Shown here in pieces: positions 5,754-32,448 of a stretch of 49,065 nt of DNA; the first letter of the stretch is position 1; each line of letters opens with the position of its first letter. The notes beneath the pieces were generated by a model. It was not told where the DNA came from and ran no database searches. It worked only from the letters and a program-made list of their open reading frames with translations. Source of the stretch: a virus; the IMG/VR virus record IMGVR_UViG_3300045742_000049, positions 1 to 49,065 of that record; one strand, given 5' to 3'. Position numbers and translations under genes: made by a program.

Positions 5754-6148
5754 CAGTCAAACCTCATCTTGGCGGCCTCGAAGGCCGGGCGGTTGATCAC
5801 CGAGATCGCCATGAGGCGCGCTCGGGTGAACACCAACAGGTCGTTCTCCACGGCTGTCTCGATCATGTTGAGATCCATCCCCACGGTGTAGATCGGGTTG
5901 TTGTCCTCGTCAGTGGGAAGCGCCGAGCGGTCGGCGTAGCCCAGCACCGTCATCACGCCGTCAGTGATCTCGTAGGAGTCGATCTTGCCGATGATCCCCC
6001 CACCGACATAGGGGTCCCGAACAGGGCTGACCACCGGGATCGGGAAGTGCTCGACGTAGATGGCGCCGGACTTCACCACGCGATCGTCCACCGTGGGGAT
6101 GTCGAACCAGCACACCGGGGCGATGAAGGGGTCGTGGTAGTCGGTCAT
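5753..6148 (-). CDS. Hypothetical protein, 131 aa, weakly protease-like C-terminus
   Basis: The C-terminal stretch (FTRARLMAISVINRPAFEAAKM) loosely resembles the conserved strand-plus-PAF segment of HK97-type prohead proteases. The protein is shorter than that family, I cannot identify the catalytic His/Ser pair, and the neighbourhood is not structural, so a protease call is not justified. The start MTDYHDPF has AGGAAG upstream and overlaps the stop of the 30-codon gene before it. Confidence 0.7.
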   Translation of the reverse strand: MTDYHDPFIAPVCWFDIPTVDDRVVKSGAIYVEHFPIPVVSPVRDPYVGGGIIGKIDSYEITDGVMTVLGYADRSALPTDEDNNPIYTVGMDLNMIETAVENDLLVFTRARLMAISVINRPAFEAAKMRFD

Positions 6149-6237
6149 GGCTTCCTCTGGTGGTGACGGCATCGAGTGGGCCGCGGGATTCGGGGATACC
6201 CGATAGCCGAACAGCGGACGTAGACGAAGGGCCTCAT
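6145..6237 (-). CDS. Tiny coupled gene, 30 aa
   Basis: A 30-codon frame (MRPFVYVRCSAIGYPRIPRP and ten more basic residues) overlaps the stop of the upstream gene by ATGA and its own stop overlaps the next ATG by ATGA. This perfect coupling on both sides explains an otherwise non-coding 85-base gap. The product is basic and contains a proline-rich segment. Function unknown. Confidence 0.6.
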   Translation of the reverse strand: MRPFVYVRCSAIGYPRIPRPTRCRHHQRKP

Positions 6238-6620
6238 CGCGGGATGTACCTCCTGATCTTCTCGCCACAGTGGTTGCACTGGTACACGTCCTCCTCGTCG
6301 CCGTCCCACCAATCCTCGTAGGTGCGAAGGAAGGTAAGACTGCGGTGGCCGCAGACCAGCCACTCGGAGAGATCAGCGTTGGGCAACGGAGCATCGAGAT
6401 AGCAGTAGGGGAACCGATCGAGGTCTTGGCCGACAGGGCAGCGCGTGTAGACCCCGAGCCACCAGGCCCACCCCATGTCGGGGCTGATGATCCACCAGCC
6501 GCCCAGGACGTGGTTGAGCCACTCGGCGTCCGTCTCCCACGGGTCATCGAGCATCTCGGAGTGGTGCTGGGTGGCGTAGGCGCGCACGATGTCGCCCATG
6601 AGTGCCAGGAAGTCGTTCAT
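6234..6620 (-). CDS. Trp-rich zinc-binding-like protein, 128 aa
   Basis: The protein is rich in tryptophan (GGWWIISPDMGWAWWLG) and ends with a Cys pair (CNHC) that may pair with an earlier Cys/His (VCGH) to bind zinc. The start overlaps the upstream stop by 4 bases. No family recognised. Confidence 0.75.
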   Translation of the reverse strand: MNDFLALMGDIVRAYATQHHSEMLDDPWETDAEWLNHVLGGWWIISPDMGWAWWLGVYTRCPVGQDLDRFPYCYLDAPLPNADLSEWLVCGHRSLTFLRTYEDWWDGDEEDVYQCNHCGEKIRRYIPR

Positions 6621-6967
6621 GATTCCTCACAGACGCAGCGAACCACGATGATCCGCTGACCGAACTCGTCGCCCTCAATCTCGTGACCGCCGCCGCAGGT
6701 GCGGCAGGGGAGGTCGGCGAGTTGCTCGGCCGCCCACTCGTGGAGTCCGGGGAGGGGAAGGTGCCGGGGGACCTTGGGTGGCGTGCGGCCGAAGCCGATG
6801 ATCTCGTCACGGGCATGGACCATGACGTTGATCACGAGTTGGTCGTTGGCCATCATGCCGCCACCGTGCCAGGAGGCACAGAGGTGGATGAAGGCAGCCT
6901 CCTCCAAGCGGTTGGGCCGCTCGGAGAGGAACTCGTCCATGGTGGCGATGTGGGGGGCGGGGGTCAT
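6617..6967 (-). CDS. Zinc-ribbon protein, 116 aa
   Basis: A C-terminal zinc ribbon is made by CRTC and CVC near the end. The N-terminal two thirds are helical with a histidine-rich centre. Coupled to both neighbours by 4-base overlaps. Function unknown. Confidence 0.75.
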   Translation of the reverse strand: MTPAPHIATMDEFLSERPNRLEEAAFIHLCASWHGGGMMANDQLVINVMVHARDEIIGFGRTPPKVPRHLPLPGLHEWAAEQLADLPCRTCGGGHEIEGDEFGQRIIVVRCVCEES

Positions 6968-7455
6968 GATGCCGTCCTCGTGAAATCGACCTTGGCCAAG
7001 CGAACCAGATCACACTTAGGTCCGGGTGGTTCCCGATAGGGGAGCGCCGCTACACGATCGATGTGCTCCAAGAGCCACCACGATTCGCAACGGGTCCAAT
7101 CTTGGGACCCTTCACGGACGTGGCCATTGACAATCCTCAAGCGATGAGGCAACCACATCTCGACCCAGCCATCCCCGTCAGGCTGCCCGTCGCGGTGGCA
7201 GGTGCGAGCAGACAGGCGGCAGTCGAGACGCTCAGGTGTCCATTGGAGATCCACCAACAGCCCCGACTCGGTGGGAATGAACACATCGGTCCATGGGCCG
7301 AACTTGCCGTCACCCTGACCGCCGAGGGTTCTCTGAACAGGGTTCGGCTCGGGGTACTCATCATCATCTGGGCACACCAACATGCAGGCTGGGAAAGGGC
7401 GCCCAGCGATGGTCACGGTGGAGGTGGGATAGTCGAGGTGGATGTCGTCGTTCAC
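6964..7455 (-). CDS. Hypothetical protein, 163 aa, GTG start
   Basis: The GTG at VNDDIHLDYP is chosen because it overlaps the upstream stop as GTGA. The sequence looks beta-rich, with scattered cysteines and tryptophans but no CxxC pair. Function unknown. Confidence 0.75.
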   Translation of the reverse strand: MNDDIHLDYPTSTVTIAGRPFPACMLVCPDDDEYPEPNPVQRTLGGQGDGKFGPWTDVFIPTESGLLVDLQWTPERLDCRLSARTCHRDGQPDGDGWVEMWLPHRLRIVNGHVREGSQDWTRCESWWLLEHIDRVAALPYREPPGPKCDLVRLAKVDFTRTAS

Positions 7456-7766
7456 CGGGCCTCCTCGAAATCCTCTTGGACCCACTTGCCCAGGGTCTTG
7501 AGGGCGTCGTTCCAGCCCGCAAGTTGGTTGTTGAACCATTCATCGCCAGGCTCTCCGACGTGTCGCTCCATCTCGCCCAACATGGCATGAAGGCGCGGAA
7601 CGGAGAGTGCCGGGGTGTCCTCGTGGATGACCCAGCCGGTCGAGCGACAGTCGTCGCAGTCGTAGCGCCAGGGAAGTTGTTCCAGGCCGCGCTTGACCAC
7701 GATGTCGCCCGTGCCATCACAGGAGGGGCACTCAGTAGCCAGGAAGCCGGTCGTCTGGGGAGTCAT
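7452..7766 (-). CDS. DnaJ-type zinc-finger protein, 104 aa
   Basis: C13-P-S-C16-D-G-T-G and C37-D-D-C40-R-S-T-G are two halves of a CxxCxGxG zinc finger like that of DnaJ, without a J domain. The C-terminal part is helical. Such small proteins recur in phages with unknown roles. Both ends are coupled by 4-base overlaps. Confidence 0.8.
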   Translation of the reverse strand: MTPQTTGFLATECPSCDGTGDIVVKRGLEQLPWRYDCDDCRSTGWVIHEDTPALSVPRLHAMLGEMERHVGEPGDEWFNNQLAGWNDALKTLGKWVQEDFEEAR

Positions 7767-8056
7767 CGGTGCTCCTCGATCCTGCGATAGAGGTCACCAA
7801 GGGCGCCAGCGTCGATGCCGCGGACGTTCTTGTTGATCCACTCGTCCACCGAGTTCATCAGCGGGTCGCGGGGCGTCTCTCGTTCCGCGATCACGACGGT
7901 CGGCATCAAGCACTCGACCGCCTCGGGGCTGGCCTTGATCCGATTGATCAGCAAGGCCGCCTTTGCCCGATGGGGACGCTCGTCGCCGGGATTCGAGCCA
8001 AGGAGGTCGTCAATGAACCCCTCCACAACCATCTCGATGGGGGTGAGGTCGCTCAT
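7763..8056 (-). CDS. Hypothetical protein, 97 aa
   Basis: A soluble, mostly helical protein without cysteine motifs. Coupled to both neighbours by 4-base overlaps. Not recognised. Confidence 0.75.
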   Translation of the reverse strand: MSDLTPIEMVVEGFIDDLLGSNPGDERPHRAKAALLINRIKASPEAVECLMPTVVIAERETPRDPLMNSVDEWINKNVRGIDAGALGDLYRRIEEHR

Positions 8057-8283
8057 CGTGGCACCATCCCGAAAGACAGGCCGGGGCGAGGGGTGGCCTC
8101 GCCGCTCTCGAACGCCTCGTCAACCACGGCATCGATGGCATCGGCCATCTCGCGGTAGTCCTTCGGGGCGCAGGTCCGGCGGGCGTGATCACGCAGCGCC
8201 CAGACGATGGAGTCGGCGTCGTTGGCGGGCACGCGGATGATCACGTCGCCGCCGTCTGCATGGACTTCGATGGGGACGCTCAC
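8053..8283 (-). CDS. Hypothetical protein, 76 aa, GTG start
   Basis: It starts at GTG (VSVPIEVHADG), overlapping the upstream stop as GTGA. A beta-strand-like N-terminus is followed by helices. No family recognised. Confidence 0.7.
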   Translation of the reverse strand: MSVPIEVHADGGDVIIRVPANDADSIVWALRDHARRTCAPKDYREMADAIDAVVDEAFESGEATPRPGLSFGMVPR

Positions 8284-8666
8284 TTGATGCGCCGATCGTC
8301 TCCGCGTTGCGCCAAGCAGGCGTCGCACAGGACGATGATCCATGAGCCACCGCGCTCGGCACCAGGGGCGCCGCAATCCTCGCAGGTCTTGAACGACAGG
8401 GCCTCGGCAGCGTTGATGGCTGCATAGAACGGGCTGTCGCGAAAGTCGCCGTCGAAGTCCACGGTGCTGCTGGCGTAGAAGCGCAGGCCGCCGAACTTCG
8501 CCTTGACCTGTTCGATCGTGTAGTCGGGATCGATGGCCGCGAGTTCTTGGTCGAGGTCGAGGATCAGGTCGATCCAGCCGGGGCCGACACTGATCATGCC
8601 GGGTGGCCTGCCACCCAGGCGTGCCAGGAGTGGGGCCAGGCGTTCTCGTTTGTCGTCGTTGCTCAT
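8280..8666 (-). CDS. Conserved phage-type protein with KFGGLRFY motif, 128 aa
   Basis: GWIDLI (30-35), QVKAKFGGLRFY (53-64), an AE-x2-S segment and a C-terminal ribbon C95-x2-C98 ... C114-x2-C117 match a small uncharacterised family I remember from many phages and some bacteria. The zinc ribbon is intact. The start MSNDDKRERL overlaps the stop of the HicA-like gene (ATGA), so the two are co-transcribed and coupled. Confidence 0.8.
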   Translation of the reverse strand: MSNDDKRERLAPLLARLGGRPPGMISVGPGWIDLILDLDQELAAIDPDYTIEQVKAKFGGLRFYASSTVDFDGDFRDSPFYAAINAAEALSFKTCEDCGAPGAERGGSWIIVLCDACLAQRGDDRRIK

Positions 8667-8872
8667 GTTGGTGCTCCTTCCATCTCGTCTTGTCGGTCGA
8701 GCCGTTTGATGAGGCCCTTGGTGTTCCGGTAACCGCGACCCTTGCCGCCGGTGGATGCCGTGAACACCTTGTGTCTGCCTTTGGTGAAGCAGATGTGGCC
8801 TCCGTTGGTTAGGTGATGCCTCCAACCTCTGTCGGTTGCCCACCGTATGATCTCTGTTCTCGCTTTCGCCAT
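8663..8872 (-). CDS. HicA-like small protein, 69 aa
   Basis: Length, the G-G-H motif at residues 24-26 followed by a strand, and the R-N-T-K-G-L-I-K-R-L helix fit the HicA (YcfA) fold, a double-stranded-RNA-binding-like domain whose histidine is needed for mRNA cleavage in known HicA toxins. No HicB-like antitoxin lies beside it; the downstream gene is a zinc-ribbon protein. It could be a toxin, an RNA-binding protein or an inactive homologue. It is the first gene after the promoter-like element at 8899-8919. Confidence 0.7.
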   Translation of the reverse strand: MAKARTEIIRWATDRGWRHHLTNGGHICFTKGRHKVFTASTGGKGRGYRNTKGLIKRLDRQDEMEGAPT

Positions 8873-19268: not shown

Positions 19269-20198
19269 ATGAGCCTCAAGACGGAAGTCCGAAAGATCAC
19301 GCCGGACGAGGCGCGATTGATCATGGGCACCAACCACAACAACCGCAAGGTGCGCCGAGCGGTCGTGGAGAAGTACGTCCGCGACATGGAGAACGGCGCA
19401 TGGGCGCTGAACGGCGAGGCCATCAAGATCAGCGCCACCGGGGATCTCCTCGACGGCCAACACCGCTTGCTCGCCTGCATCGAGGCCGACATCCCCTTCG
19501 AGACGGTGTTCATCTCCGGCGTCCCGAGCGACGCTCAGGTGGCGATGGACACGGGTGCCCGACGGACCTTCTCCGACATCCTTCGATGGAAGGGCGAGTC
19601 CAACGTCTCCTCCCTCGCTACCGCGGTCGAGTCGGCCCTCTGCTGGGATGAGTCTGGGACCCCGGCGCACCGAGGGAAGCAGCACTCCAACGCCGAGCGC
19701 CTCGCGTGGCTCGAAGCGAACCCCGACATCCGGTACGCCGTGAGGGGCTGGATGCCCCTGGCGTGCAAGCCACTTCGGTTCCCCATGTCGGCTGGCGCCC
19801 CGTTCCTCCTGAGGATCACCCGCATCGACTCGGATGATGCCGCCGAGTTCGTCCGGCTCCTCAAGACGGGGGACGGCCTCGCCGAGAAGGACCCGATCGC
19901 CCGACTGCGCCATTGGCTCTTGAACGCCGCTGGCTCCAAGGGCAAGTACGCCCGCGAGGAATACGCCGCTGTCGGCGTCAAGGCGTGGAACTTCTGGCTC
20001 AAGGGCAAGGAAGTCGGCCACCTCGTATGGCGCTCCGGTGGATCGCGCCGCGAGGACTTCCCCTTCCTCAGCACTCCCGATGGGCAGTTGTACGAGGAGA
20101 TCATCACGGACCCCGCCTATGTGCCGCCGGGGCACGCCACCTTCGAGCGCATGGGGTTCACCCCCAAGGACGAGCAGCCCCAGAAGGCCGCTGGGTAG
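19269..20198 (+). CDS. ParB-like nuclease-fold protein, 309 aa
   Basis: The N-terminal 110 residues show the phage-type ParB/sulfiredoxin-like fold: N-N-R-x-V-R-R, W-A-L-N-G-E-A-I, the D62-G-Q-H-R66 motif and M-D-T-G-A-R-R. The rest (about 200 residues) is helical and unrecognised. Proteins of this shape may bind DNA, act as nucleases or hydrolyse nucleotides; the actual activity cannot be read here. It lies between two paralogous HNH genes. Confidence 0.8.
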   Translation: MSLKTEVRKITPDEARLIMGTNHNNRKVRRAVVEKYVRDMENGAWALNGEAIKISATGDLLDGQHRLLACIEADIPFETVFISGVPSDAQVAMDTGARRTFSDILRWKGESNVSSLATAVESALCWDESGTPAHRGKQHSNAERLAWLEANPDIRYAVRGWMPLACKPLRFPMSAGAPFLLRITRIDSDDAAEFVRLLKTGDGLAEKDPIARLRHWLLNAAGSKGKYAREEYAAVGVKAWNFWLKGKEVGHLVWRSGGSRREDFPFLSTPDGQLYEEIITDPAYVPPGHATFERMGFTPKDEQPQKAAG

Positions 20199-22119: not shown

Positions 22120-22335
22120 ATGGGAGATCGCTGGCTGGGGCCTCGTCACGCCATCCGCGTGAAGAAGAACCCACTTCACTACACCACCAAGATCGAGGAC
22201 TGCATCGAGTGCATCCGCTGCGAACGGTGGCTACACAAGATGGCCTACGAACTCCCTAGCGGGGTCCGCGTCAGGGTGTGCCAGGAGTGCCGCGAGGAGT
22301 TAGCCAAGAAGCGCCCGAGAGCGGGCTTGCCCTAG
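22120..22335 (+). CDS. Zinc-ribbon protein, 71 aa
   Basis: Two pairs, C-I-E-C-I-R-C near residue 30 and C-Q-E-C near residue 55, form a zinc ribbon in a basic protein. It is a single-gene unit with its own leaderless promoter and converges on the terminase gene, overlapping it tail to tail by 4 bases. Function unknown. Confidence 0.75.
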   Translation: MGDRWLGPRHAIRVKKNPLHYTTKIEDCIECIRCERWLHKMAYELPSGVRVRVCQECREELAKKRPRAGLP

Positions 22336-23945
22336 TTGTACCCGACGGTCGCCGGAGCGCTGCCGATCCCCGTGGGAGTCTGCAGGTATCGGCGCGCCGA
22401 GGACTTCACCTTGGACTTGCGCCGGTGCAAGGGTCCGGCAAGGAAGGCCCAGGACCAATAGGCGGCATCCACGAGGTCGAAGGGCTTGACCTTCGGGAAA
22501 CGGCGAAGCGCCAACTCCAAGGCGTGGTGCGTGCCCTCGACATGGACGAATAGTCCCCGCTCGTAGTCCACGAGCATCCGCTCGGCTCGGGTGATCTTGG
22601 AACCAAGGTCGGCTGTGGCCTTCTCCTGACGATACCGGGGCATCTTCATGTGGGAGTCGCCGCGCTCGGAACGGATGTCCTCGACCACCTGATCGAACAC
22701 GACCTTCCAGAGATCACCGCCCTGGTTCGTCTCGACGCCAACCGTGTCGGCGCCGTACTCAAGAGCCTTCTCGACTGCCAGATGGATCGCTCGGTACGGA
22801 GTCGAGCGGTTCTCCCAGGAGAACAGGCGGTAGATCTTGTCATCGATCCCGAGGCCATCGACTTGGATGCCCATGGAGTCGCTGGCGTCAGTGGTGGTGA
22901 CCGCGGGGTCAACCCAGACGACCGCCCGCCGCAACTTCGGAACGTCGTCGTGGGCGACACGGATGAAGGTGAGGTGAGAGAAGATGTCGCCTTCGGGGGG
23001 CTTCGTCTCATGCTGACACTCGGCCAGGAAGGCGGAGAGGCCGATGTCGTTCATCAGCAGTTGGCACGAGTCCACCGGGAACCCCTCGGGCCACGATGGT
23101 TCGCCGCCCGTGATCACGAACTTGGCATCGCGCTCCTCGTACTCAAGGTCGAAGATCGCGGGGATCGGTCCACTCACGATACGGTCGCGCAGGAAGTCGG
23201 CTCGGCCATCGGCGAGACGGGCAAAGATCGAGTTGTCGTGCACGAGGTTCTGAACCATCAAGATGGCGCAGTCCTGAGCACCGGCGGGGAGCAACTTGCG
23301 AGTGATGGTCTTGATCTTCTTCTCGACGCGCTCGTCCGTATCCAACTCGCCATCGATGTCGTCAAAGACCATGAAGTCGGGGCGCTGGTCCTCCAACTTC
23401 ACACCACGAGCAGCGGAGTCGAGGCCCATGGCGTCGAGGGTGAAGCCCGTCTTGGTGCGGATACGGTTGCGGCGCCAGCCCTTGGACGTGCCGAACTTGC
23501 CCATGAGGCGCTCGCCGAGTTCGGGGTAGGCCATCTCGATGGTGTCGGACTCCAACATGGCCGCGACGTTGGCAACGTGGTCGTCCGCCTGGTCCTGAGT
23601 CTCAGAGACGTAGATGCCGTACTTGCGCTTCTTGCGGGCGGCGACGGCGACCACCGCCAACTCGGCAGAGGTGGACTTACCGTGGCCACGGGGCCAGATC
23701 GACACCCAGGGCTTCGGGCGCTTGGCTGGCTCGACCTCCCAGACCCACTCCCAGAACTTCTGATGCCCCTCGGAGAACGGCCGGTCGGCAGCCTGGGGGA
23801 AGAACATGTTGATCCACGGTTGCCATTCGTCCGCCTCGACCACGCGAGCCAAGAGGTACTGGTAGTACGCCTCGCGCTCCTCGGGGCTGGCCTTGGCCAG
23901 CAACTCCTCCGAGATGACGACGAAGCCAGACTCCTCCTCAGCCAT
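22332..23945 (-). CDS. terL: Terminase large subunit, 537 aa
   Basis: The ATPase domain has a Walker A-like P-R-G-H-G-K-S-T (85-92) and Walker B F-M-V-F-D-D-I-D (191-198). The C-terminal nuclease domain shows D346 (VVWVDPAV), E405 (GVETNQGG) and D493 (LVDAAYWS), the expected acidic triad of the RNase H-like fold. It packages DNA into the prohead with the small subunit encoded just upstream. The ATG at 23945 overlaps the small-subunit stop (TGATG); an earlier TTG is less likely. Confidence 0.95.
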   Translation of the reverse strand: MAEEESGFVVISEELLAKASPEEREAYYQYLLARVVEADEWQPWINMFFPQAADRPFSEGHQKFWEWVWEVEPAKRPKPWVSIWPRGHGKSTSAELAVVAVAARKKRKYGIYVSETQDQADDHVANVAAMLESDTIEMAYPELGERLMGKFGTSKGWRRNRIRTKTGFTLDAMGLDSAARGVKLEDQRPDFMVFDDIDGELDTDERVEKKIKTITRKLLPAGAQDCAILMVQNLVHDNSIFARLADGRADFLRDRIVSGPIPAIFDLEYEERDAKFVITGGEPSWPEGFPVDSCQLLMNDIGLSAFLAECQHETKPPEGDIFSHLTFIRVAHDDVPKLRRAVVWVDPAVTTTDASDSMGIQVDGLGIDDKIYRLFSWENRSTPYRAIHLAVEKALEYGADTVGVETNQGGDLWKVVFDQVVEDIRSERGDSHMKMPRYRQEKATADLGSKITRAERMLVDYERGLFVHVEGTHHALELALRRFPKVKPFDLVDAAYWSWAFLAGPLHRRKSKVKSSARRYLQTPTGIGSAPATVGYN

Positions 23946-24532
23946 CAGGTCCGATCCTGCCAAGGGTCGTCATCATCGGGGAGGTCATCGAGGTCAGAGA
24001 TGTCGTCAGGAACCGCCAGAGGTTCGCCAGCCTCCAACTCAGCCCGGTACTCATCGATGATCTCGGCGTCCTCGATCTCCTTCTGGTCGTGCTGGTTTCG
24101 AGTAGCAAGGCGCTGGGCCAGGGCCACCATGGAAGCGTCATCGAGTTCGATCCCAGCGACGACCTTCACAGGCCCACCTCCCTCACCAACCAACTCAACG
24201 CGGTTGGTGTCGCGGCGTCCCCACCGCTCAGGCCAGGAGCGCTCCAAGTACCACGAGGCGGCCTGCCACGCTCCCTCAGAGGCCGCCTTCTGGATCTTCG
24301 CCAACGAGGCGACCTCCGCATCGGCTCGGGCCTTCTCCAACGCCTCCTTGAACTCGACATACTCTGGTGGAGCGTCGGGATCGTCGGCCTTGAGAATCCA
24401 CCGCCGGAGGGTCTGGTAAGAGATGCCAGCGTAGGCAGCGGCCGTCTGCAGGTAGTTGCCACCGCGCACGGCTTGCAGCAACTTCTCAGCGCGATCCTCG
24501 TTGAACTTGGATGGGTTTCCAGGGTCGGCCAT
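23945..24532 (-). CDS. terS: Terminase small subunit, 195 aa
   Basis: The N-terminal helix-turn-helix (GGNYLQTAAAYAGISYQTLR then RW, about residues 24-46) is the DNA-recognition type typical of small terminases. A helical oligomerisation region and a very acidic tail (DDISDLDDLPDDDD) follow. Position directly upstream of, and coupled to, the large subunit supports the call. The size fits the family. Confidence 0.85.
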   Translation of the reverse strand: MADPGNPSKFNEDRAEKLLQAVRGGNYLQTAAAYAGISYQTLRRWILKADDPDAPPEYVEFKEALEKARADAEVASLAKIQKAASEGAWQAASWYLERSWPERWGRRDTNRVELVGEGGGPVKVVAGIELDDASMVALAQRLATRNQHDQKEIEDAEIIDEYRAELEAGEPLAVPDDISDLDDLPDDDDPWQDRT

Positions 24533-29033: not shown

Positions 29034-29831
29034 CTACAGCCAGCGTTCGGCCCCTTGAGCAACAGCAGGCTCCACAGATTCAGAGTCGATCCCCAACTTC
29101 ACGGCGGCCGATACACCAGCCAGAGAGAGGTCGCCAGAGTGCTCCTTCAAGAACCCCCTCACGAACCGCTCGTAGGTCTGTCGCGGGACCTTGGCGCGCA
29201 ACTCCCCGAAGCGGAAGATCACGAACTCCACAGGCTCATTTCCGATGGTGTCGGTGACGGGGGCGGGGGTTGAAGATTCGCTGGTACCTTCAAGAAGGTC
29301 GTCGGAACCGTCCTCGATGTCGTCGTACTCCTCATCGTTGCCCGGCATGATCCGGTCGAGCACAGCGGCAGCAAGGCCCACGTCCTCGCTGCCCTCGTCG
29401 TCGGGCAACTCGAACGCGGTGGAAGCCGCCAGGAGGTCGTCCACCTCGTCGGCGGTGTAGCCGGTGCCTTCAAGCAGGGCGTCGCTCTCGTCCAAGATGT
29501 CTGCGAGGAGGTCAGCCAGGAGGCGCTCGTCGTAGGTGCCGCGGTCGGCGATCTTGTTGGCCGCCAACAGGATGCGCTTGGCCTGGGTGTCGTCCACATC
29601 GACGTAGACCACATCGATCTCGTCCCAACCAAGTTCGCACGCCGCTCGATAGGTGTGGTTGCCGGAGACGATGTAGCCGGTGGACTGTTGGACCACGATC
29701 GGAGCGAACTGCTGGTTCTCGGCCAGCGACTCCATGATGGCCTCGATGTCACCGACGCGAGGGTTGCCTGGGAACTGCTCGATGAGATCGACGCTGACCC
29801 TGACGATCTTGTCGAGGAGTGAATCGGTCAT
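29034..29831 (-). CDS. ParB-like protein A, 265 aa
   Basis: Residues 10-115 match a ParB/sulfiredoxin-like domain: N23-P-R-V-G-D-I, P-I-V-V-Q-Q and S-G-N57-H-T-Y-R-A-A, then an L-A-A-N-K segment. An acidic linker and a C-terminal helical domain follow. Such domains often accompany phage DNA methyltransferases, and this gene overlaps the methyltransferase/PLP fusion stop by 4 bases. It is a clear paralogue of the protein at 31672-32448. The activity (nuclease, DNA binding or nucleotide-dependent) is not determinable here. Confidence 0.82.
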   Translation of the reverse strand: MTDSLLDKIVRVSVDLIEQFPGNPRVGDIEAIMESLAENQQFAPIVVQQSTGYIVSGNHTYRAACELGWDEIDVVYVDVDDTQAKRILLAANKIADRGTYDERLLADLLADILDESDALLEGTGYTADEVDDLLAASTAFELPDDEGSEDVGLAAAVLDRIMPGNDEEYDDIEDGSDDLLEGTSESSTPAPVTDTIGNEPVEFVIFRFGELRAKVPRQTYERFVRGFLKEHSGDLSLAGVSAAVKLGIDSESVEPAVAQGAERWL

Positions 29832-31396
29832 TCGCTCGGTCCTTCTGGGTCGATGGCCACAACGGGGCCGCACGCCCTTGTGGCCTTCTTCGGGTCACCC
29901 TTCACGAACACGAGGATGTTCTGATGAGTCTTGCCCAACTTGCGAGTGGCATCGAACTGACGGCCAGCACGCAGCGGAAGGCTGGCGGCATGAGTCACCA
30001 ACACGGCCTCGTTGTAGAGGCGCGTCCCGGCCGCCTCCATGATCTTCACCGTGTCGGCAGGGAAGCCGTAGTAGTAACCCTTCTTGTCGCGGAAGTCGCC
30101 GACCACGATGGCCACGAAACGATCGTTGGCGAGGCGCTCAACACTGTTGGCCATGATCTTGCCGAACGCCTCGATGAAGTCTGGGTACTCCATGGTGGAG
30201 AGATCGCGAGGGTCGTCGCTGTAGACCTCCAAGTCGCCATAGGGCGGGCAAGTGAAGATCATGTCTGCCGTTTCGTCTGTGAGGTTCATCACGTCCATGC
30301 CATCGCCCTCGATCCAGACCGGATCTGGCGCCGTCACGGGAACCGCCGAGGGGCGGATGGCGCTGACCCACAGGAGGTCGCCTTCACGGAGGTAGGGGAT
30401 GCACTTGGCCTCGTAGTAGGAGTCGAGGAGCACCCCGTCGAGGTCGATGCGCTCGGCGGCGACGTGGTAGTCCGATTCCTCATCGATCAACTCCACCATG
30501 TCGCGCCACCCCTCTGGCGCCCAACGGTCGAGGCGTTCTTCGGGGACGTGGCCGACGCAGATTGCGACGACAGGGATCTCAAGGCCCTGAGCAACGAGGC
30601 CATGAAGGATGCCAGCGAGCGTCATGCCCGATCCACAGGCGTTGACGATGCGCTTGGCGCCTTCGGGGATGTTCACGACCTGAGGAGCGGTGTAGTCCAC
30701 GGCCTCTTGGGACTCCATGCCGTAAGGGACCTCGACCCATCCGCGCTCTCGGGCATCGTCTCGGGCACGGGCGATGATGACCGAGTTGTAGCCGTAGTCA
30801 TGTTGGGTGATCACGGCGCCCGCAGCACGAGCGGCGAGCAACTCAGCCGTGAGGGGGCCGGAGGGGACGTGCACCCGGCACTTGACGCCCATCTCGTAGG
30901 CGATCTGAGCGACGAAGTTCACCTGGGGAGACATCCGACTCCCGGCCGTGATGACGCCGACACCCTTGTCCTTGGCCTGCTGGATGAAGTGCATACAGGT
31001 ACGGACCTTGGCCCCACGGACTCCGGCGTAGACGTACTTGTCCTCACGCTTGAGCCAGATGCCGCGCTCCTCCAAGAACTCGACCGGGGTCACGTCGGGC
31101 ATGGACTCAGCCGGGGTATCAGGAACGATACCCACGCCGTCGATGAGCAACTCCTTGGACTGCTGGTAGTTGGCCTCGATCTGGTTGGCGCGCACGTCGA
31201 TCCCGATGTAGCGACGCCCCAACTTGGCGGCGACGATGCCACGCACCGAACCACCAGCGAATGGGTCGAGCACGAGGCCCTTCGGAGGGCAGAACCAGCG
31301 GTACGCGATCTCACACAGCACGGGGTCGAAGATCGACGTGGCTCCGTCGCCGTAGAGGAGTTCAGAGTCGTTGGACTCGACCTCAGTGTCACCCAT
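29828..31396 (-). CDS. DNA methyltransferase with inserted PLP-dependent enzyme domain, 522 aa
   Basis: Residues 20-80 hold methyltransferase motifs X/I (D44-P-F-A-G-G49, then RRYIGID), the SAM-binding half. Residues of about 100-350 are a fold-type-II PLP domain like ACC deaminase/D-cysteine desulfhydrase: L-K-R-E-D, the Schiff-base lysine candidate K130 in G-A-K-V-R, a following S-R-M-S-P-Q-V-N, and the phosphate-binding G255-S-G-M-T-L-A-G. Residues 355-505 carry motif IV T-C-P-P-Y-G-D (382-388) and the end segment H-Q-N-I-L-V-F-V-K-G typical of amino-methyltransferases. The two methyltransferase parts together make one catalytic domain of X-I-(insert)-IV order. The frame is continuous. It probably modifies DNA bases; the added group is unknown. 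GGAGAGG precedes the ATG. Confidence 0.85.
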   Translation of the reverse strand: MGDTEVESNDSELLYGDGATSIFDPVLCEIAYRWFCPPKGLVLDPFAGGSVRGIVAAKLGRRYIGIDVRANQIEANYQQSKELLIDGVGIVPDTPAESMPDVTPVEFLEERGIWLKREDKYVYAGVRGAKVRTCMHFIQQAKDKGVGVITAGSRMSPQVNFVAQIAYEMGVKCRVHVPSGPLTAELLAARAAGAVITQHDYGYNSVIIARARDDARERGWVEVPYGMESQEAVDYTAPQVVNIPEGAKRIVNACGSGMTLAGILHGLVAQGLEIPVVAICVGHVPEERLDRWAPEGWRDMVELIDEESDYHVAAERIDLDGVLLDSYYEAKCIPYLREGDLLWVSAIRPSAVPVTAPDPVWIEGDGMDVMNLTDETADMIFTCPPYGDLEVYSDDPRDLSTMEYPDFIEAFGKIMANSVERLANDRFVAIVVGDFRDKKGYYYGFPADTVKIMEAAGTRLYNEAVLVTHAASLPLRAGRQFDATRKLGKTHQNILVFVKGDPKKATRACGPVVAIDPEGPSE

Positions 31397-31679
31397 GGAC
31401 CTCTCCGATCTCCCGGTACTGCCGGACGGCCTGCTCGGCCCATGTCTCGACCTTGAGGCCGATCTCGTTGGACTCACCCATCAGCGATGGCCAGAACTTC
31501 TCGCAGTCGAGGCATCGAGAGCGCATCCCCCCGGCGGCCATGATCTCGTCGCCGTAGATGTTTCGGATTCGATGTCGGCCAGGGCAGCGGCGGAAGGGGA
31601 CGAAGCCAATGCGCCAACGGAAGCGGTTCCAGAGCCGAAGGCGATGGCCGTTGATCTCGACGGGAGCGCGGCTACTCAT
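31389..31679 (-). CDS. Small basic Cys-containing protein, 96 aa
   Basis: The basic N-terminal half (R-L-W-N-R-F-R-W-R) is followed by C32 and a C56-x2-C59 pair, which may bind zinc. It lies between ParB-like protein B and the methyltransferase/PLP fusion, overlapping both by 8 bases, so it is probably made with them. A DNA-binding accessory role is only a guess. Confidence 0.7.
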   Translation of the reverse strand: MSSRAPVEINGHRLRLWNRFRWRIGFVPFRRCPGRHRIRNIYGDEIMAAGGMRSRCLDCEKFWPSLMGESNEIGLKVETWAEQAVRQYREIGEVHG

Positions 31680-32448
31680 CGTCGGCTCGCTTCCTCTCCT
31701 CGGCAGCGCCCTCAGGGACGAAAGGACGGTCTGGGTGATGGTGGCGCTGGGGTGCAGCCAGGTACCACGTCCGGGGCTTGTCGTCGCGCCCCAACTCGCC
31801 CTCAAGGCCGAGTTCGATCCATGTGTTCTTGCGGTCCTGCCACCAGCCCTCGCGAGCGTTGAGCACGGTGAAGGGTGGCAACACGAAGCGGTCCGATAGC
31901 GACAGGGTTGCCCGACGTGAGGTCTGAGCATCGTCCTTGCGCTTGATGTCGGCGAGCGGGTTCTCCCCCCGCTCATCATCACCATCGTCGGCGGCTTCCT
32001 CCAACTCGGCCGGGGCAGCCGTCTCGCTGAGGAGAGCCTCAAGGTCGTCCATCGTGTAGGAGGCGGCGTCGAGGAGGGCCTCGTCGGCATCAAGCACGTC
32101 GGCGATCATGGCGGCCAGGGCGTCATCGTCGTAGGTCCCCAACTCGGCCGTGCGGTTGTCCGCGAGGGCGAACGCCTTGGCGGTGGCCTCATCGTCATCG
32201 GTCCACAGCACGGCGATCTGAGTCCATCCCAACCGGCGCGCTGCTTGCAGGGTGTGGTTGCCAGCGATCACCTGCTTGGTGGAGCGTTGCACGATGATGG
32301 GCTTGCGCTGGCCGAACTTGTCCAGCGACTTGGCCACGGAGTCGATGTCGCCGACGCGAGGGTTACCCTCAAGCAACTGCGGCTCATCGATCGGGGCTGC
32401 GAGTGGCTGCAGCGATTCAGCGATCTTGTGGCTCACTGCTTGTTCCAC
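31672..32448 (-). CDS. ParB-like protein B with methyltransferase-associated C-terminal segment, 258 aa
   Basis: Residues 20-125 are a ParB-like domain (N29-P-R-V-G-D-I, P-I-I-V-Q-R, A-G-N64-H-T-L-Q-A-A), paralogous to the protein at 29034-29831. Residues 186-222 (DRFVLPPFTVLNAREGWWQD then RK..W..LGL..ELGR) match a segment that I remember preceding the catalytic domain of many phage DNA methyltransferases. Here it is on a separate chain from the methyltransferase two genes downstream, so the two may form one complex. Confidence 0.82.
   Translation of the reverse strand: MEQAVSHKIAESLQPLAAPIDEPQLLEGNPRVGDIDSVAKSLDKFGQRKPIIVQRSTKQVIAGNHTLQAARRLGWTQIAVLWTDDDEATAKAFALADNRTAELGTYDDDALAAMIADVLDADEALLDAASYTMDDLEALLSETAAPAELEEAADDGDDERGENPLADIKRKDDAQTSRRATLSLSDRFVLPPFTVLNAREGWWQDRKNTWIELGLEGELGRDDKPRTWYLAAPQRHHHPDRPFVPEGAAEERKRADDE

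Follow-up and report, generated by a model that had tools for sequence, protein, structure and literature searches.

A pyridoxal-phosphate enzyme domain nested within a ParB-associated phage methyltransferase, a candidate enzyme of DNA-base hypermodification

The nested protein and its locus

We analysed a stretch of viral DNA of 49,065 nucleotides (IMG/VR record IMGVR_UViG_3300045742_000049, positions 1 to 49,065; hereafter the window), in which one gene encodes a ParB-type DNA methyltransferase (MTase) interrupted by a domain predicted to depend on pyridoxal 5'-phosphate (PLP). The gene occupies 29828..31396 on the minus strand, with its start ATG at 31396 and its stop at 29828, and was delineated from its open reading frame (ORF), Pfam, PHROGs and an AlphaFold model of the 522-amino-acid product. 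An earlier note on this DNA had reported the 522-codon frame and the motifs D44-P-F-A-G-G, K130 in G-A-K-V-R, G255-S-G-M-T-L-A-G262, T382-C-P-P-Y-G-D388 and H491-Q-N-I-L-V-F-V-K-G500, all of which we recovered at those residues. It did not mention that the gene is on the minus strand, that the cysteine of motif IV is invariant, that ParB genes flank the gene on both sides or that the partnership of the two enzymes is widespread. The N-terminal half of the MTase (residues 20-82; 31151..31339, minus strand) contains motif X (SIFDPVL), motif I (D44PFAGGSVRG) and helix B, as judged from an alignment of 153 homologues. The fold-type-II PLP domain follows (residues ~98-352; 30341..31105, minus strand), recognised by Pfam PALP, Foldseek and a PDB profile search as having the fold of D-cysteine desulfhydrase and 1-aminocyclopropane-1-carboxylate (ACC) deaminase. 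The C-terminal half of the MTase (residues ~355-510; 29867..30334, minus strand), delimited in the same 153-row alignment, holds strand 3, motif IV (T382-C-P-P-Y) and the C-terminal strands (HQNILVFVKG).

The nested order is visible in Pfam, where PALP (residues 106-283, E 1e-12) separates two N6_N4_Mtase segments (E 2e-12) and both families score above the cut-off. Helix B is joined directly to strand 3 in uninserted homologues (phiFL3A gp36, AlanGrant gp1 and L006-L009), and ~270 residues separate the two elements in the window protein. The AlphaFold model, computed from an alignment of 50 rows, has a predicted local distance difference test (pLDDT) of 89.2 and a predicted TM score (pTM) of 0.81, and Foldseek ranks D-cysteine desulfhydrase (E 2e-12) and a homologue of ACC deaminase (E 5e-11) first among its PDB matches. 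An uninserted phage MTase, A0A6J5Q9J0, aligns to the model across 500 alignment columns (TMt 0.64, root-mean-square deviation 4.4 A), hence both MTase halves form a single fold. The predicted structure thus confirms what the earlier note had proposed, namely that the PLP domain is complete and inserted into one class-I MTase fold, and places it between helix B and strand 3. An end-to-end fusion is ruled out for this protein, although a form with a C-terminal PLP domain exists elsewhere (five cases: L047, L051, L053, L055 and L101). Pfam, AlphaFold and Foldseek agree on a class-I Rossmann MTase fold of amino-MTase type with motif I DPF.G, and the insert has the TrpB-like fold, the Schiff-base lysine and the glycine-rich phosphate loop GS(G) of fold-type-II PF00291 enzymes.

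Three cultured phages, Pam4, R6L and ZS04, have the same insertion, as do some 30 further IMG/VR contigs, in line with the earlier note's suggestion to look for such homologues. This distribution, together with constraint on the ratio of nonsynonymous to synonymous substitutions (dN/dS), rules out a chance ORF or an assembly artefact. Nested inserts share one site, 11-30 residues past the match to the N-half and 8-31 residues ahead of the match to the C-half, the latter spacing excluding a few proteins with an extra domain or an intein. A second AlphaFold model, of a nested relative with a diverged PLP domain (L044; pLDDT 87.3, pTM 0.66), has its elements in the same order as the window protein.

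The gene lies between two genes for ParB-fold proteins on the same strand. ParB-1 (31672..32436, minus strand; phrog_723 E 1e-39 and phrog_15396) ends in a C-terminal DRFVLPPFTVLNAREGWWQDRK segment, the part that is fused N-terminally to the MTase in relatives. ParB-2 is encoded at 29034..29831 (minus strand; Pfam ParB_N E 1e-6, phrog_723 E 3e-40). Between ParB-1 and the MTase, a coding-potential scan points to a small ORF of 96 amino acids (31389..31679, minus strand), which has no family match and may be part of the MTase-PLP module. ParB-1 overlaps the small ORF by 8 bp, the small ORF overlaps the MTase gene by 8 bp and the MTase stop overlaps ParB-2 by 4 bp, which suggests that the four genes are co-transcribed. 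Helicase, sliding-clamp and terminase genes lie downstream on the same strand, with the small terminase subunit at 23945-24532 and the large subunit at 22332-23945 (both minus strand; the pair matches phrog_38 at E 7e-55 and phrog_4102 at E 8e-32). A DNA-modifying gene thus stands between a ParB-like gene and the gene of the large terminase subunit, on one strand, which is the layout of the ParB-Tls loci of Iyer et al. 2013 as relayed by PMC6536676. On the opposite strand to the modification genes, 19269-20198 (plus strand) encodes a phrog_5931 protein (E 1e-65) of unknown function.

Conserved residues and lineages of the two domains

The codon of K130, the predicted Schiff-base lysine, is found at 31007..31009 (minus strand). 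The lysine is invariant among 182/182 PLP domains and corresponds, in a profile alignment, to the lysine of the GNKLRK motif of D-cysteine desulfhydrase. R117, D119, G128, S256, Y328, E/D329 and K331 are near-invariant in the same set, across three PLP lineages. Compared with close relatives, the PLP domain has a dN/dS of 0.11-0.17, and the MTase halves give similar values. These patterns support the prediction that the PLP domain is catalytically intact. One might think of it instead as a non-catalytic scaffold or dimerisation module, given that the insertion site is in this fold usually distant from the active site and tolerant of additional domains. Yet, all catalytic and cofactor-contacting residues are kept, also in stand-alone partners, and we find this role very unlikely.

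As for its kinship, the closest NCBIfam models are of the ACC deaminase, D-cysteine desulfhydrase and CuyA types, with scores far under the curated cut-offs for equivalogs (about 15-39 bits vs the 289-610 required; 38.5 vs 450 bits for CuyA). The domain is also related to phrog_3650, a family of thymidine-hypermodification clusters. The PLP tree has three lineages. Lineage A includes the window protein and most nested and C-terminal cases. Lineage B, on a long branch, includes PLP proteins of Rhodobacterales and Rhizobiales prophages and the nested proteins of R6L, ZS04, L044, L046 and L048. Lineage C is made of the thymidine-hypermodification PLP enzymes, with AlanGrant gp2 in a basal position. 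The diverged lineages A and B are both nested at the identical helix-B/strand-3 site, and the gene of AlanGrant gp2 overlaps that of gp1, a ParB-methyltransferase. Hence, three diverged PLP lineages have been paired with one MTase family.

The MTase has peculiarities of its own. Its motif I, DPFAGGSVRG, is non-classical; D44, G48, G49, R52 and G53 are invariant in the alignment, R52 in 153/153 homologues, and further invariant arginines are R436, R476 and R485. Motif IV is CPPY in 153/153 homologues, which departs from the canonical (D/N/S)PP(Y/F/W): the first residue of this motif in classical amino-MTases is Asp, Asn or Ser, whereas here it is C383 (codon at 30248..30250, minus strand). Judging from conservation, the invariant C383 and R52 are a hint of unusual MTase chemistry. 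Motif IV is interrupted, exactly between T382 and C383, by an intein (Intein_splicing, LAGLIDADG, Hint) in two relatives, L003 (ORF 5785-8688) and L021. Functional sites are the usual location of inteins. Another apparent intein interrupts the Walker A motif (GLGK/GLMVGTEV) of a neighbouring SF2 helicase at L004:8906-11815.

Distribution of the pair and linkage between its members

Profile searches of loci from IMG/VR, GTDB genomes and phage records yielded 178 ParB-type MTase records, some of them near-duplicates. The PLP enzyme is nested in 37, C-terminal in 5, encoded by an adjacent gene in 55, nearby in 4 and missing from 77. Adjacent genes are mostly downstream on the MTase strand (51/55). 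The module is widespread, in hundreds of viral contigs and in prophages of Pseudomonadota, Bacteroidota and Cyanobacteria. PLP presence is patchy on the MTase tree, with at least 28 presence/absence changes, a count that is indicative only since the tree is poorly supported. Such patchiness could point to a mobile insertion akin to inteins or homing elements, which are known to invade a phage methylase family (PMC9957025) and of which the motif IV intein is an example within this MTase family. However, the insert is a complete and conserved PLP enzyme under constraint similar to that of its host fold, and the PLP enzyme is also found as an adjacent gene or a C-terminal fusion. A selfish insertion was rejected because we found no splicing or nuclease motifs in the insert and because stand-alone PLP partners exist; mobility of this kind is scarcely credible.

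Linkage was also approached from the PLP side, by searching IMG/VR with PLP-only alignments and counting MTases within 5 kb. Since the seeds were taken from MTase-linked loci, these linkage values are biased upward. Lineage-B seeds found an MTase at 79/80 loci, the remaining one being at a contig edge, and lineage-A seeds at 65/80; for the remainder of lineage A the MTase was elsewhere on 6/10 tested contigs. Lineage C served as a control: an MTase was found at 0/79 loci, and aGPT-PPlase2, a kinase or a hydroxymethylase at 68/79 (Fisher p ~1e-47). Conversely, scans of 11 contigs with PLP-less MTases gave no match to PLP-A or PLP-B, the positive control having worked for B. The PLP enzyme is thus rarely found without the MTase, and the MTase often without the PLP enzyme, which makes it probable that the PLP step requires the MTase and not the reverse.

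These counts bear on the simplest view of the locus, in which the MTase makes ordinary N6-methyladenine (m6A) or N4-methylcytosine (m4C) against restriction and the PLP domain has an independent activity, such as amino acid depletion, sulfide release or the countering of host defence, both being kept together for co-expression. The family is annotated as m6A/m4C MTase, many members lack a PLP partner and the relatives of the PLP domain are lyases and deaminases, all of which fits. Yet, co-expression alone hardly explains nesting in two diverged PLP lineages as well as C-terminal fusions, PLP-A and PLP-B seldom occur without the MTase, and the third PLP lineage sits with DNA-hypermodification genes. 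Besides, a methyl group is no substrate for PLP chemistry, and ordinary methylation would leave the substrate of the PLP domain unexplained. We regard this view as unlikely.

Some relatives show further arrangements. A single ORF at L400:4923-7193 encodes PLP, ParB and MTase in that order, with an MTase of a more distant SPPY type; a similar SPPY enzyme is encoded close to a PLP gene in Staphylococcus phage Alsa_1. A 1200-amino-acid protein (L101:4822-8424) combines ParB, methyltransferase and C-terminal PLP domains with a C-terminal domain of ~300 amino acids and unknown function. In L041, L042, L043 and L055 a Cys-rich domain of ~190 amino acids (weak DUF3109 match) lies beside the PLP domain and may be an additional partner with a catalytic or metal-binding role. 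At L355:5788-8430, two paralogous genes of ~320 amino acids adjoin a stand-alone PLP-A gene. When neighbouring ORFs were clustered in search of a third conserved partner, what emerged beyond ParB, PLP and packaging genes was mostly antisense noise.

Candidate functions and relation to known systems

Known phage thymidine hypermodifications start from 5-hydroxymethyluridine, via a kinase and a transferase. The window genes that were scanned included no recognisable kinase, aGPT-PPlase2 or hydroxymethylase, and aGPT-PPlase2 was not detected in the complete genomes of AlanGrant, Pam4, ZS04 and Alsa_1, though Vi01 and Montesquieu were positive. With the partner genes not found among those scanned, membership of that pathway was rejected. 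The link to phage thymine hypermodification drawn in the earlier note therefore stands for the PLP domain, through phrog_3650, and falls for the pathway as a whole. The genomes lacking aGPT-PPlase2 need another installer, and with none of these genes among those scanned in the window the MTase is the obvious one.

This leads us to favour, with about even confidence, the idea that the window protein is a phage DNA-base modification or hypermodification enzyme in which the MTase attaches a group derived from S-adenosylmethionine (SAM) and the PLP domain remodels the product. The ParB-fold partners would bring the enzyme to phage DNA around packaging. The MTase-fold domain, with its GGSVRG and CPPY motifs, would bind SAM and place a SAM-derived group on a base; the nested PLP domain would form an external aldimine with the amino-acid moiety of the product and then remodel it by decarboxylation, elimination or deamination, much as phage PLP enzymes reportedly do with amino-acid-decorated 5-hydroxymethyluridine. 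The likely purpose would be to shield phage DNA from host nucleases. PLP enzymes require an amine, usually an alpha-amino acid, so that transfer of the 3-amino-3-carboxypropyl (acp) group of SAM, instead of or besides the methyl, would be the simplest chemistry giving a PLP substrate, an alpha-amino acid on DNA, which the PLP domain could trim or decarboxylate. Acp transfer is the specific version that we prefer, at a low probability.

Several observations weigh against remodelling of an MTase product. The homologue alignment revealed no column of the MTase active site that separates PLP-partnered from PLP-less members, so that what the MTase catalyses may be plain methylation, and the case for an unusual chemistry confined to PLP-partnered MTases is weakened. 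The region between helix B and strand 3 is normally on the face away from the SAM/base pocket, and direct channelling within one chain is thus not obvious. The nearest enzymes of the PLP domain are small-molecule lyases and deaminases. Finally, the linkage counts use seeds near MTases and include near-duplicates.

The order of the two steps could also be inverted. The PLP domain would then take SAM or a free amino acid as its substrate, for instance converting the amino-acid part of SAM or producing aminoacrylate (from serine, O-phosphoserine or D-cysteine); the MTase would transfer the resulting group to DNA in the manner of CmoA/CmoX. Fold-type-II relatives do use free amino acids, CmoA/CmoX offers a precedent within ParB-linked phage loci (PMC12783734), the invariant R52, R436, R476 and R485 could hold an additional charged group, and weak matches link the ParB domain of one relative to the serine kinases SerK/SbnI (E 0.001-0.006). 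Yet, those matches are far under the cut-off, the identical MTase residues are invariant in PLP-less members, which would have to use plain SAM, and no change in MTase residues follows PLP presence. We see such a supply of the donor as a doubtful possibility.

If remodelling of the MTase product holds, pairing a PLP enzyme directly with an MTase-like enzyme, without kinase/transferase machinery, would be a different chemical route to amino-acid-decorated DNA, and acp transfer followed by PLP trimming would amount to a new class of DNA modification in which a single polypeptide performs both steps. There is a fair chance that the chemistry of the MTase-PLP enzyme is new. A PLP domain inside an MTase fold would also be an unusual bifunctional architecture, and the presence of the module in cultured phages (Pam4, ZS04/R6L, AlanGrant/Vincenzo) makes it testable. 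The component parts are of known kinds; their nested combination and family-wide pairing are undescribed in the literature we searched. In that literature we found no publication on a nested MTase-PLP protein, and an earlier mention in Lee et al. 2018/2022 or Iyer et al. 2013 is possible.

Among known systems, the phrog_3650 PLP enzymes (Vi01_182 of Salmonella phage Vi01 and Montesquieu gp41) are homologous fold-type-II domains in a phage DNA-modification setting, as in the window, and share with the window domain the pattern KR(D/E)D...GxK...SPQ...GS...YE(A/G)K. Phage PLP enzymes reportedly decarboxylate or remodel amino acids attached to 5-hydroxymethyluridine in DNA. However, the phrog_3650 enzymes are separate genes, found with aGPT-PPlase2 and the 5-hydroxymethyldeoxyuridine kinase and never with the MTase at the control loci, whereas the window domain is of a distinct lineage and nested. 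The closest folds and NCBIfam models, those of D-cysteine desulfhydrase, ACC deaminase and D-cysteate sulfo-lyase, differ from the window PLP domain in that the latter sits within a DNA MTase.

On the MTase side, the ParB-MTases of ParB-Tls loci (Paracoccus prophages, phiFL3A gp36, phrog_498/12517) are of the same family, with the same ParB link and the same place upstream of the terminase. They have no nested PLP domain and many, unlike the window protein, have a separate PLP gene next to them. Of the m6A/m4C MTases of Paracoccus prophages, those with a ParB domain form the largest group, their activity being given as unconfirmed as of 2019 (PMC6536676). According to a suggestion of Iyer et al. 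2013, cited in PMC6536676, ParB proteins may guide modification enzymes while DNA is packaged. The carboxymethyl-cytosine system of CmoA/CmoX, often near ParB genes, is a precedent for the way the enzyme might work: an MTase homologue adds a SAM-derived handle that another enzyme elaborates (PMC12783734). CmoX itself, encoded in ParB-rich phage loci, is a homologue of C5-MTases that uses carboxy-SAM and transfers the modified group (PMC12783734), whereas the window MTase matches the amino-MTase family PF01555, has CPPY and is joined to a PLP enzyme; CmoA was not seen among the window proteins scanned. The nearest equivalents are Pseudanabaena phage Pam4 gp70 and Erythrobacter phage R6L gp1 / ZS04_7, which are annotated solely as PLP enzyme or methyltransferase. 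They have the nested architecture of the window protein but carry ParB fused in front, where the window has separate genes, and R6L and ZS04 carry PLP lineage B where the window carries lineage A.

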